Part shown: positions 8,027 to 13,854 of the stretch, piece by piece
Position numbering within the stretch: the stretch's first letter is position 1
Layout: each line of letters begins with the position of its first letter
DNA from: a virus
Direction: 5' to 3' (one strand)
Length of the DNA stretch: 24,344 nt
IMG/VR virus record: IMGVR_UViG_3300023703_000808
Coordinates: 1 to 24,344 of that record
Position numbers and translations under genes: made by a program
The notes under the pieces: generated by a model
What the model saw: only the letters and a program-made list of their open reading frames with translations
What the model was told of the DNA's origin: nothing
Database searches by the model: none

Positions 8027-8673
8027 AGACCTACGAGGCATTCTTTCCCGATGTGCTTCCCGATGTTCCGGGCTGCCCTTCGGATGTGGCAATCCGTGCG
8101 ATTCGCCATGCTGTGATTGAATTTTGCGAGAAGTCGCTGATTCACCAAATCACCCAAGACCCCATCACTCTGCGGGAAAACCTGACAGACTACGACTTAG
8201 ACGCACCAAACGGGTATCGAGTCCAGAAGGTGATGAAGGTTTGGTTCCGTGGTGTTGAGCTTGAGCCAGCCGCTCCAGATGACATCGTGACACCAGATGC
8301 GTATAGCCAGTCTATTGGCGGCTACACACCATCCAAGTCAACCCCAACGGCGTACACACAAAAAGATTTTGAGTCGGTAAGTTTCCTCCCAATTCCGAAT
8401 CAGACGTACACCAACGCTATTACAATGCGTGTAGCACTCGTGCCTCTGCGTGATTCAACACAGATTGAGGATTTCCTCTACGAGCAATGGGGCGAGTCGA
8501 TCGCCTGTGGTGCAAAAGCCCGGTTGATGCTCAATCCCGGCAAACCCTACACAAACCAAGAAGCCGCTGCAATCAATCAAGGTCGCTACATGATGGCCCT
8601 GAATGATGCGCGTCAACGCGCTATTCGCGGCAATGTGCGCTCAGACTTGAGCGTGAAGATGAGGAAGCCATGA
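8023..8673 (+). CDS. Tail connector / tubular protein-like
   Basis: This 216-residue protein overlaps the adaptor gene by ATGA. It starts with a helical segment (VAIRAIRHAVIEFCEKSLIH), continues with a beta-rich middle (YRVQKVMKVWFRGVEL, MRVALVPLRDS), and ends with a helical C-terminus (WGESIACGAKARLMLNPGK). This order of helices and strands is typical of second-ring connector proteins in podovirus tails. It would act between adaptor and nozzle (the 607-aa protein). It overlaps the next gene by ATGA. Confidence 0.72.
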   Translation: MKTYEAFFPDVLPDVPGCPSDVAIRAIRHAVIEFCEKSLIHQITQDPITLRENLTDYDLDAPNGYRVQKVMKVWFRGVELEPAAPDDIVTPDAYSQSIGGYTPSKSTPTAYTQKDFESVSFLPIPNQTYTNAITMRVALVPLRDSTQIEDFLYEQWGESIACGAKARLMLNPGKPYTNQEAAAINQGRYMMALNDARQRAIRGNVRSDLSVKMRKP

Positions 8674-8996
8674 CAGAGAAAATCAAGCTCGTCGCTGGCG
8701 ACAATCGCCCCTACATCAAGCTAACTCTCAGGGATGCAGATGGCAATGCCATCAACCTTGAGAACACCACGGTGCGCGTCTACTTCCGCGCTGTCGGTTC
8801 GGACACAGTTCTCTCAACCATCACCTGCAACATGATTAACGGTGGACGTGACGGCCAAGTGTCGTTCAACTTCACTGGCAACACGTTGGATGTTGAACCC
8901 GGCCCTTACGAGGGTGAAGTCGAGATTGACTTCGGTGGAGAGCTGCAAACCGTCTATGACGTGTTGAAGTTTCAAGTACGTCAACAATTTAACTGA
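8670..8996 (+). CDS. Baseplate-type beta-sandwich domain protein (BppU-N-like)
   Basis: This 108-residue, all-beta protein consists of one domain: KIKLVAGDNRPYIKLTLRDA, an NLENTTVRVYFR strand, GQVSFNF, PGPYEGEVEIDF, and a final strand. The pattern resembles the N-terminal domain of phage upper baseplate proteins (BppU_N family), which attaches receptor-binding parts to the tail. Here the domain stands alone. It begins the cluster of tail and fibre modules. ATGA overlap couples it to the connector gene. Confidence 0.7.
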   Translation: MTEKIKLVAGDNRPYIKLTLRDADGNAINLENTTVRVYFRAVGSDTVLSTITCNMINGGRDGQVSFNFTGNTLDVEPGPYEGEVEIDFGGELQTVYDVLKFQVRQQFN

Positions 8997-9008: not shown

Positions 9009-9446
9009 ATGTCCGCAATGACCGACTTTCTGGAAAACAAACTGATTGACCAGATTTTCCGTGGCCAAAGCGCCCCAGCAACTGCAACCTTGTATGTCGC
9101 TCTGTTCACAGCAGCGCCAAGCGATGCAGCAGGTGGCACTGAGGTTTCGACAAACGGCTACGCTCGCGTGGCTGTGACATCGAGCTTGGCTAACTGGGCT
9201 GGCACACAAAGCGCTGGCTCAACGGTTGCCTCATCTGGCACTGGTGGCCAGACATCGAACAACGCTGCAATCACATTCCCAACTCCCACTGGTGGCGGCT
9301 GGGGTACTGTGACTCACTTCGCAATCTTTGACGCTGCCACTGGCGGCAACATGCTGCTGGAAGGCGCACTGGCAATCGCCAAGACCATCAACGAAGCCGA
9401 CACGGTTTCTTTCCCTGCGGCATCTCTGGCAATCACCTTCGCTTAA
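9009..9446 (+). CDS. Phage tail fibre-family small protein
   Basis: This 145-residue protein matches a common phage tail module. The N-terminal helix DFLENKLIDQIFRG leads to LYVALFTAAPSDAAGGTEV and NGYARVAV. Later come AAITFPTPTGGGWGTVTHFA and IFDAATGGNML, then the beta-rich end. Such proteins are often annotated as tail fibre proteins and probably form a trimeric beta structure at the tail. It has a good GAGG ribosome site. It belongs to the consecutive set of short tail proteins between connector and lysis genes. Confidence 0.8.
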   Translation: MSAMTDFLENKLIDQIFRGQSAPATATLYVALFTAAPSDAAGGTEVSTNGYARVAVTSSLANWAGTQSAGSTVASSGTGGQTSNNAAITFPTPTGGGWGTVTHFAIFDAATGGNMLLEGALAIAKTINEADTVSFPAASLAITFA

Positions 9447-9465
9447 TTTTTGTTCGGAGTGAGCA

Positions 9466-10374
9466 ATGCTTCTAAACGTCACTCCATTAAACAAGGTCGT
9501 CCTTAACGGACGAAGCGGAGAGTTCAAGGGGCTTGCAGGAAGTGTTTCCGCAAGCGCCTCAGTTGCATCAGCGCTAGGCAAAACAGACAGACTGGTTTCA
9601 AGCCTATCCGTCACTGCTGCCACAGCATCTGCTGCAACGATTGGCAAGCGCCTGAGCGCATCAGCCACAGCAAGAGCTACAACCTCGGCATCACTTGGCG
9701 TTGTCAAGAACGAGTCAGCATCTGTCACAGCACGGGCAACGACCACAGCGTCAGCGTCCAAACGAGTGAACATGGCTGGCTCTGCAACGATGGCCGGCAT
9801 GACGGTTGCTGCCGCCAAGGTGAACAAGCTGGTCTCAGCGACAGCCACCGCGCGCGGAACGGTATCTGCCACAGCCAAAGTCAACAAGCTGGTGCGAGCT
9901 GCCGCAGTCGCTGCCGCATCTGTCTCCGTCTCGGCATTGCTGGGCAAGAGGCTGCAAGGCGCACTGACGAGCTACCTGACGACACAAGCAGCCGCCTCGT
10001 TGTCTGTGAACATGAGTGCGAGCCTAAAAACAGACAGTGGCTCACATAGTGAGCTTCTGCTTGAGGCAAACATAGCCGCCAGTCTGTTGGCGTCTGTCAA
10101 CGGTCAGCCGATGGTGTACGTCGAGCGCTCCATCAAATCTGATGGCGTTGTGATTACCGCCTCTGCTGATGGCAAGTTGGTGTTTTCACATCTGGTGAGT
10201 GCAGAAGTCGGCGGTCATTCGTACTTTGAACAATCGTTCACAAGCGTCTTCGCAACTGCGGAGCTGGTGGACACATGGAAGAACCACATCAAGATTGATG
10301 TTGACGCTTCTGTGAAACCAATAACGGCAAGTGCCGAACTGTACTACCCACCGGTTGTGCAGGGCGCACCATAG
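9466..10374 (+). CDS. Ala/Ser/Thr-rich protein with 20-residue tandem repeats
   Basis: This 302-residue protein is dominated by about ten tandem repeats of 19-21 residues. Each has alternating small residues (Ala with Ser/Thr/Val) and usually ends in a basic or Asn residue plus a hydrophobic one: DRL, KRL, VNM, NKL, NKL, KRL, VNM, ANI, RSI, SHL at residues 43, 63, 103, 122, 142, 163, 183, 203, 223 and 243 (KNE occupies the slot at 83). Alternating inward/outward residues suggest short beta strands, so a beta-solenoid or trimeric fibre shaft is likely. The last 60 residues are non-repetitive and beta-rich. A GGAG site precedes the ATG. It lies among tail modules, so a tail-shaft role is inferred. 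I do not recognise a characterised homologue. Confidence 0.75.
   Translation: MLLNVTPLNKVVLNGRSGEFKGLAGSVSASASVASALGKTDRLVSSLSVTAATASAATIGKRLSASATARATTSASLGVVKNESASVTARATTTASASKRVNMAGSATMAGMTVAAAKVNKLVSATATARGTVSATAKVNKLVRAAAVAAASVSVSALLGKRLQGALTSYLTTQAAASLSVNMSASLKTDSGSHSELLLEANIAASLLASVNGQPMVYVERSIKSDGVVITASADGKLVFSHLVSAEVGGHSYFEQSFTSVFATAELVDTWKNHIKIDVDASVKPITASAELYYPPVVQGAP
9595..10074 (+). repeat. DNA encoding the 20-residue tandem repeats
   Basis: This stretch encodes residues 44-203 of the Ala/Ser/Thr-rich protein, eight consecutive units of 19-21 codons. The repeats are clear in protein but degenerate in DNA. Only short pieces are kept, such as GTGAACATG and AACAAGCTGGT, each seen twice. 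This suggests an old duplication under protein-level selection rather than a recent expansion. Confidence 0.75.
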
Positions 10375-10382
10375 GAGCTTTC

Positions 10383-10748
10383 ATGGGTATCAAGTTTTCA
10401 AACAATGCAAGCGCAACGCTGGCAGCGGGTATCAACAACCTTGCAACCAGCGTTTCTGTTTCAACAGGTCAGGGCGCTCTCTACCCGACGCTTGGCGCTG
10501 GCGAATACTTCTACGCCACTCTGGTCGATTCAAGCAACAACCTTGAAATCGTCAAGGTGACAGCTCGCAGCGGTGACTCAATGACCATCGTGCGTGGTCA
10601 GGACGGCACAACGGCTCGCACGTTTGCATCTGGAGACAAGCTGGAAGTTCGACTCACTGGCGCTGGTCTCTCTGCAATTCAGCAAGAGGCCATCGACAAC
10701 ACAACTGCTGCCGTTGGTAGCGCTTTGGCTTTTGCAATCGCCCTGTAA
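10383..10748 (+). CDS. Conserved tail module protein (IKFSNNA..VRGQDGTTA family)
   Basis: This 121-residue protein is a common phage tail module. It starts IKFSNNASATLAAGINN, then has GALYPTLGAGEYFYATLVD, LEIVKVTARSGDSMTIVRGQ and DGTTARTFASGDKLEVRLT. Elsewhere this domain is often found at the N-terminus of tail fibres or as a stand-alone tail protein. It is predicted to be beta-rich and may attach fibres to the tail. It starts after a TAGGAG site nine bases from the previous gene. Confidence 0.78.
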   Translation: MGIKFSNNASATLAAGINNLATSVSVSTGQGALYPTLGAGEYFYATLVDSSNNLEIVKVTARSGDSMTIVRGQDGTTARTFASGDKLEVRLTGAGLSAIQQEAIDNTTAAVGSALAFAIAL

Positions 10749-12597: not shown

Positions 12598-13854
12598 ATG
12601 TCCTATATCGGGAATGCACCTGTCGTTCAGGCGTCGCGTGTAACCACTGAGTTGGTTGCCATTGCTGGCCAAACCGACATCTACCCTCTGGGCGGCTACA
12701 CACCGGGCGACTATCTCGATGTAGAGATTAACGGCTCCGCCCTCAAGTCAACAGACTACACGGCAACAGACGGCGTAAAGATTACTTTGGCTGTCGCAAT
12801 GGCTGCTGGTGACGATGTTCGCGTCAAAGCCTTTGGCGTCTTTCAGGTTGCCAACGCTGTTCCTGCAAATGGCTCAGTGAGCGCTACAAAGTTGGATGTT
12901 GCTAGTTCAAATGGCACTGGCGCATCATCTCTGCCGTCCGGAACAACAGCCCAACGCCCATCTTTGCCGTCTACTGGAATGCAACGATACAACACGTCGT
13001 TGAAGCAAATCGAAGCATTCAATGGCTCAGCTTGGGTTGCCGTCGGAGACATGACCTCAACATACTCTGTTGGCTATCTACTTTTAGGCGGAGGTGCTGG
13101 CGGCGGATATTCAGATGGCGGTGGCGGCGGTGCGGGCGGGTTTATTGAATCAACCGCAGTATTGACGGCGGAGACCGTATACGCGATTACTGTTGGTGCT
13201 GGCGGGTCAGCCGGTACGTCTGGCTCAACCAAGGGCGGGAACGGAGTCAACTCATCCTTTGTGGCTATTTCGGCAATCGGCGGCGGCGGCGGCGCTGGCG
13301 TTGGTAATTCTGCAAACTCAGGTGGCTCAGGTGGCGGCGGATGCTACACCTACACGTCAGCGGAAGGTGCTGGCACTTCTGGTCAAGGCTACGGCGGCGG
13401 ACACGGCAACAACTATGTCAGTGGGTCTGGCTCCGCAACTGGCGGCGGCGGAGGCGGCGCTGGCGGTGCTGGCGGTGCTGGTGTTGGTGGTCAAGCTGGT
13501 GTTGGTGGTGCTGGCAAGTCTAGTTCTATCACAGGCTCTGCCGTTACCTATGGCGGTGGCGGTGGCGGTGGTGCATACGCAGGTCTTGGCGGCGCTGGCG
13601 GTGCTGGCGGAGGCGGTCAAGGCGGCGGCACAAGCGGCCCTCAGTTGTTGGGTGGCGCTGGCGCTGCAAACACCGGCGGTGGTGGTGGTGGTGGCGCAGA
13701 CAGTAACAGTGGCGGCGCTGGTGGCTCTGGCGTTGTTGTTCTTTCTGTTCCAACAACTAGGTATAGCGGCATTACAACCGGCTCCCCGACTGTTACAACT
13801 AGCGGAAGCAACACAATCTTGAAGTTCACTACTTCTGGCTCTTACACGGCATAA
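12598..13854 (+). CDS. Glycine-rich tail fibre / adhesin
   Basis: This 418-residue protein combines three parts. The N-terminal domain (about 1-100, MSYIGNAPVVQASRV) and a short module with GTTAQRPSLPSTGMQRYN (about 119-136) are both typical of phage fibres. A long glycine-rich region follows (about 163-381) with runs of five to eight Gly broken by Ala, Ser and aromatic residues. The C-terminal beta segment contains GVVVLSVPTT and ILKFTTSGSYTA. Glycine-rich adhesins of this type (for example the T4-like S16 gp38) pack polyglycine-II helices and present variable loops to the receptor. A receptor-binding tip is therefore the likely role. The DNA is GGC/GGT-repetitive, which favours recombination between alleles. 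Confidence 0.85.
   Translation: MSYIGNAPVVQASRVTTELVAIAGQTDIYPLGGYTPGDYLDVEINGSALKSTDYTATDGVKITLAVAMAAGDDVRVKAFGVFQVANAVPANGSVSATKLDVASSNGTGASSLPSGTTAQRPSLPSTGMQRYNTSLKQIEAFNGSAWVAVGDMTSTYSVGYLLLGGGAGGGYSDGGGGGAGGFIESTAVLTAETVYAITVGAGGSAGTSGSTKGGNGVNSSFVAISAIGGGGGAGVGNSANSGGSGGGGCYTYTSAEGAGTSGQGYGGGHGNNYVSGSGSATGGGGGGAGGAGGAGVGGQAGVGGAGKSSSITGSAVTYGGGGGGGAYAGLGGAGGAGGGGQGGGTSGPQLLGGAGAANTGGGGGGGADSNSGGAGGSGVVVLSVPTTRYSGITTGSPTVTTSGSNTILKFTTSGSYTA
13087..13731 (+). repeat. GGN-rich low-complexity DNA in the adhesin gene
   Basis: This stretch consists largely of GGC, GGT and GCT codons, such as the repeated GGCGCTGGCGGTGCTGGC, and encodes the polyglycine core. The other frames and the opposite strand are open by composition only, so no additional gene is called. 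Confidence 0.85.

Follow-up and report, generated by a model that had tools for sequence, protein, structure and literature searches.

A 20-residue repeat protein as the probable rope of a GP4-type bead-chain fibre

Results

Genes at the locus

The window, which denotes here the whole stretch of 24,344 nucleotides analysed (virus record IMGVR_UViG_3300023703_000808), has genes for a terminase, a portal, a capsid protein (PF25209), adaptors and an internal virion protein, the structural genes of a phage with a short tail. The plus-strand ORF at positions 9009–9446 matches Pfam family PF23140 (Gp80; title 'Podophage GP4 fiber I protein gp80') with an E-value of 2.2e-44 and 151 bits, at a gathering cutoff of 27, and covers the full profile (1–128 of 128). 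It also matches PDB entry 8jou_a (E 7e-20; profile E 1e-51). Immediately before it lies an ORF (8670–8996, plus strand) for a small Ig-like protein, a candidate for the adaptor that would attach the fibre chain discussed below to the tail; its Pfam matches to Ig-like folds are weak and stay below threshold (Invasin_D3, E 0.0028). Directly downstream of the gp80-type gene is the ORF for the repeat protein P0001 (9466–10374, plus strand, 302 aa); a GGAG ribosome-binding site is visible at 9456–9459. In the following, gp80-type proteins are called beads and the repeat proteins ropes.

The next ORF (10383–10748, plus strand) matches 8jov_1 (tail fibre, 18 chains; E 1.6e-21) and phrog_8469 tail fiber (E 1.8e-35), and encodes the domain with which another GP4-type fibre starts, apart from the chain itself. 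Because the ORF at 9009–9446 matches 8jou and the one at 10383–10748 matches 8jov, the phage of the window carries parts of two GP4-type fibres. A long glycine-rich protein (12598–13854; Pfam Gly_rich_2, E 9.5e-14) is encoded among the fibre genes, and the same domain follows the repeats in gp32 of mycobacteriophage Oline.

P0001 has a period of 20 residues

P0001 consists of an N-terminal stretch with a conserved motif, MLLNVTPLN..LNG (residues 1–22; 9466–9531), eleven 20-residue repeats (residues 23–242; 9532–10191) and a C-terminal part that ends in ITASAELYYP (residues 243–302 and stop codon; 10192–10374) and that resembles the ends of other ropes in an alignment of C-termini. Autocorrelation of the protein sequence (BLOSUM62) peaked at lag 20 with a z value of 8.6, with z 5.3 at lag 40, while 99% of 1000 shuffles that preserved the composition stayed below 3.6 at every lag. 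Residues 20–260 alone gave z 9.2 at lag 20, and residues 190–302 taken alone gave no period. Circular-profile alignment counted 11.5 repeats over residues 21–246 (score 308 versus at most 128 in shuffles), so that residues 1–22 and about 247–302 lie outside the repeats. The original prediction had placed hinge-like residues at positions 43, 63, 83, 103, 122, 142, 163, 183, 203, 223 and 243; these positions are correct, and the near-constant 20-residue spacing is real. Its estimate of about ten strict repeats holds for the period but not for the count, since there are 11 full repeats, two of them with 19 and 21 residues. The pairs at the hinge positions are, in order, DR-L, KR-L, KN-E, VN-M, NK-L, NK-L, KR-L, VN-M, AN-I, RS-I and SH-L; the residue preceding each hinge position is mostly basic or Asn.

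The period is a feature of the protein, because no DNA-level tandem repeat that matches it is present within the gene. The nearest distinct relative (from locus L023) shares 54% amino acid identity with P0001, and the differences between the two genes fall on codon positions 1, 2 and 3 in numbers of 105, 82 and 187. This bias, together with a dN of 0.42 and a dS of 1.69 (dN/dS about 0.25), demonstrates that the ORF is a real gene under purifying selection.

Family searches and structure prediction

No Pfam or NCBIfam family was found for P0001 or for other ropes, and no model of these databases covers its period of 20, in agreement with the original note, in which the repeat was not recognised as one of a named family. 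Among PHROG profiles, P0001 did not match PHROG 19041, which contains BcepIL02 gp56 and GP4 gp81, and hit only phrog_1892 (E 0.25). Searches of phages by tblastn with P0001 or with its C-terminus, and of the PDB by phmmer with P0001, BcepMigl gp57 and GP4 gp81, gave nothing significant, and a rope used as query against viral contigs retrieved only itself.

AlphaFold2, supplied with 20 sequences, yielded a P0001 model with a mean pLDDT of 41 and a pTM of 0.41. One coil per 20 residues had been predicted; no confident model was obtained, and what can be seen are short strands about every 10 residues, all of low confidence. Foldseek gave no significant match for this model (best E 0.17). Most of the matches were left-handed beta-helix acyltransferases, which we set aside as insignificant and derived from a low-confidence model.

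P0001 had been proposed to be a solenoid or trimeric shaft in which each repeat is one turn. In such a self-standing beta-solenoid, as monomer or trimer, each repeat would be a two-strand coil of 20 residues, the whole would be a rigid shaft, and gp80 would sit at one of its ends, base or tip. The strict period, the alternating small residues and the strands seen about every 10 residues fit such a fold. The pLDDT is low even though the period is strict and 20 sequences were supplied, and this, with the lack of a significant Foldseek match, leaves the proposal unsupported. Neither the constant link to gp80 described below nor a GP4 fibre I with ten gp80 chains is accounted for by it. The predicted model is too poor to rule against any fold, and we consider the two-strand solenoid unlikely.

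Bead and rope were also modelled in one chain, by an artificial read-through translation of locus L027, where the two genes share a frame (TAA read as Gly) and with an alignment that did not include rope-only rows. For much of the bead the model was good, the rope part stayed near a pLDDT of 50, and the rope was not confidently docked on the bead. In a Foldseek search this model matched 8jou_a and, with weaker E-values but a probability of 1.00, neck proteins of Bas63 and Sf14. The predicted structures thus favour neither a solenoid nor a rope for P0001; failure of AlphaFold2 to fold a rope alone would be expected of a chain that depends on a partner.

Repeat proteins are linked to gp80-type genes

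From 80 fetched gp80 loci, 77 were usable (viral). Of the 77, 63 had an ORF with a 20-residue period near gp80: in 49 it was directly downstream, and in the other 14 it lay at another position of the locus. Close relatives are frequent among these loci; after clustering at 90% gp80 similarity such an ORF was present in 23 of 31 clusters. When all ORFs with any strong period in the gp80 loci were considered, 65/75 had their peak at exactly 20. An unbiased set of 80 loci, for which capsid homology was the only criterion of choice, contained 7 loci with both bead and repeat protein, 5 with the bead only, 4 with the repeat protein only and 64 with neither (Fisher p 6e-5, which is optimistic since loci are related). 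Some gp80 loci in both sets lack a lag-20 ORF.

The exceptions in the capsid-fetched set are informative. Two bead-only loci (L134 and L160) stop with the bead or shortly after it, in two (L147 and L148) the bead matches are marginal, and in L182 two bead genes are followed by a repeat-like protein missed by our filter. These tandem gp80-type genes (L182:11340-14669) have the repeat protein downstream and another one, with repeats like LAGANARQDNTSTSGAVTQTHV, upstream. As to the repeat-only loci, L167 is a false positive, the ORF in L154 is on the minus strand, and the repeat proteins of L198 and L203 begin with the motif typical of ropes and stand beside another virion protein family, phrog_3758. 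There the ropes (L203:5197-7440, L198:3026-4591) adjoin one or two phrog_3758 genes, and gp80 is absent beside them. Comparison of gp80 with this alternative bead revealed no profile similarity (hhalign probability 0.2%). The rope may serve several bead families.

Other arrangements were also observed. In L074, L095 and L098 a single gp80 gene lies between two lag-20 proteins. Ropes can carry extra domains: in L077:4481-6181, L080:4472-5932 and L069:3393-4601 they are fused to other N-terminal domains, with a glycine-rich region in L069.

Lag 20 was the best lag of the gp80-adjacent protein in GP4, BcepMigl, BcepIL02, POI1126, phiM5, CRP-4, MEP401, C72C1, DSL-LC06 and ctjtQ328. The phages with this best lag span GP4, phages of Burkholderia, Ochrobactrum, Sinorhizobium, Roseobacter and Methylophilales, and uncultured phages, some signals being weak (z 2.9–4.3). 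For gp32 of mycobacteriophage Oline lag 20 was a close second. In this phage (L102:4789-6369) the gp80-type gp33, annotated as head protein, follows the minor tail protein gp32, in which lag-20 repeats are joined to a glycine-rich domain. No lag-20 ORF was found within the first 50 kb of Alishewanella phage Slicko01, which is mentioned in the study of phage LSH1 (PMC13243795). The bead occurs in about 390 mycobacteriophage records, and its gene is also present in contigs assigned to Proteobacteria, Nitrospira, Verrucomicrobia, Chloroflexi and Firmicutes.

Conserved N-terminus, repeat numbers and virion data

The ropes share the N-terminal motif LNxxx[LI]N, which was present in 29/33 distinct rope N-termini and in 6/508 other ORFs. 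It reads LNVTPLN in P0001 and LNVAPIN in GP4 gp81, and is also carried by BcepIL02 gp56. The circular-profile count gave 10.6 repeats for GP4 gp81 (lag-20 z 4.3) and 10.2–11.2 for the ropes of BcepIL02, MEP401 and ctjtQ328. For another rope, of 434 aa, the count was 19.9, and the longest rope has 1322 aa.

These data also bear on the view that P0001 is a disordered Ala/Ser/Thr linker or spacer that has no specific partner and owes its period to repeat duplication. Its low sequence complexity and the low-confidence AlphaFold2 model would be in agreement with a linker. A period of exactly 20 maintained across very divergent phages, the conserved N-terminal motif, the dN/dS value and the lack of DNA-level repeats remaining from recent duplication all speak against it, and we regard this explanation as highly improbable.

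The counterparts of P0001 in BcepMigl and BcepIL02 are annotated as virion-associated, and PHROG 19041 is annotated 'virion structural protein'. Mass spectrometry of JC1 virions detected the bead gp53 but not gp54, the gp81-type counterpart; phiM5_18, the counterpart in phiM5, carries no detection mark. Both observations would suit an assembly factor or chaperone that collects gp80 beads on its repeats and is absent from the finished fibre. With about one rope expected for every ten beads, failure to see the rope by mass spectrometry is no surprise, and the virion association annotated for BcepIL02 and BcepMigl argues against a chaperone. We consider this role quite improbable. That P0001 is a fibre component of the virion, as originally predicted, is probable, with genomic context and the GP4 fibre in agreement.

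Discussion

PDB entry 8jou has the title 'Fiber I and fiber-tail-adaptor of phage GP4' and contains ten gp80 chains. Fibre I reportedly consists of five gp80 dimers joined by an elongated rope protein. The candidate GP4 rope gene is gp81 (L012:2206-3183). A PDB search found no chain with the GP4 gp81 sequence, and the rope gene is unnamed in the accessible parts of the later literature citing GP4. As in the window, the candidate gene in GP4 has a gp80-type bead gene directly upstream, and its product has a period of 20, about 10–11 repeats and an LNxxP[LI]N start. The two proteins are too diverged for BLAST and differ in their C-termini and in their repeats, which are Gly/Asp-rich in GP4 and Ala/Ser/Thr-rich in P0001. 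P0001 and PHROG 19041 are alike in gene position and period although the profile does not match P0001, and the putative homology is based on where the gene lies, on the period and on the N-terminal motif.

Based on these data, P0001 is likely to be the rope in a side fibre that is chain-like and of the GP4 fibre I type, with its repeats occupied by gp80-type bead subunits. We prefer a chain occupied by a second protein to a self-standing shaft because of the genomic context and the GP4 fibre. The rope would be an extended polypeptide with its conserved N-terminus probably anchored to the tail or to the small Ig-like adaptor. Each 20-residue repeat would probably form a pair of short, alternating Ala/Ser/Thr strands and end in a Lys/Arg/Asn-Leu/Met hinge. 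The gp80-type subunits from the upstream gene would occupy the repeats, probably by beta-strand addition to gp80 dimers, with the rope threading through the chain in the virion of the window phage.

The 10.6 repeats of GP4 gp81 compare to the 10 gp80 chains of 8jou, a comparison based on one structure. The simplest reading of this one structure would be one repeat per gp80 subunit, which makes the rope a length ruler. The number of beads would then follow the number of repeats, about 10–11 here and in GP4 and many more in longer ropes. We suggest, more tentatively and with the case close to evenly balanced, that the 20-residue repeat could be a molecular ruler with one gp80-type subunit per repeat, by which phages tune fibre length between about 10 and several tens of beads through gain and loss of repeats, and that the rope principle could be common to gp80 and phrog_3758 beads and to podophages and siphophages.

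Several known systems are comparable. The whiskers of Felix-O1-type phages (Sf14 gp30/gp31, PDB 9c39; Bas63 connector, 9mt4) have as bead a gp80-like fold that forms dimers, and Felix-O1-type myophages seem to use this fold repeatedly for whisker or connector proteins of the neck. The whiskers of Sf14 contain dimers of gp31, and a copy of gp30 runs as a thread through two of them (PMC11821841). Sf14 gp31 (L216:5791-6123) has 110 aa, a length that fits the chain matched by Foldseek; its TVSHFSLWD resembles TVTHFAIFD of the window bead, with weak profile similarity. The Sf14 whiskers differ from the bead chain in that each has one bead dimer and gp30 lacks 20-residue repeats. The available part of the Sf14 paper does not mention a link to GP4.

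Alishewanella phage LSH1 has a three-gene module (gp34–gp36) like that of the window, in which gp35 is a gp80-like dimer and gp36 has an Ig fold (PMC13243795). A region adjoining gp35 defeats structure prediction and was left unexplained by the 2026 study, whose authors found no predicted complex in the module (PMC13243795). Unlike P0001, this region is part of a larger protein, gp34, where it is joined to an adhesin/lyase-like domain. The neck fibres of Anabaena phage A-1(L), five per virion and anchored on a 15-fold neck ring, are also bead chains and work alike, but they have trimeric beads (gp81, about 14:1:1) and were described without a rope (PMC10966104); the gene name gp80 in A-1(L) is a coincidence.

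The GP4-type bead chain is a known fibre type, while the rope family is so far without a name in Pfam and NCBIfam; the novelty of the rope assignment would be smaller if the GP4 paper already gives gp81 as the rope. Our data tie a large set of 'hypothetical' phage proteins to a solved fibre type and give them a testable role, in which the repeat count would predict the number of beads per fibre. Structure predictors fail on these proteins perhaps because ropes fold only on their bead partner. If the ruler reading is true, the GP4 rope is identified, and the unpredictable region beside the LSH1 bead is perhaps explained as well. Since the bead gene is widespread, the annotation would extend to many genomes.
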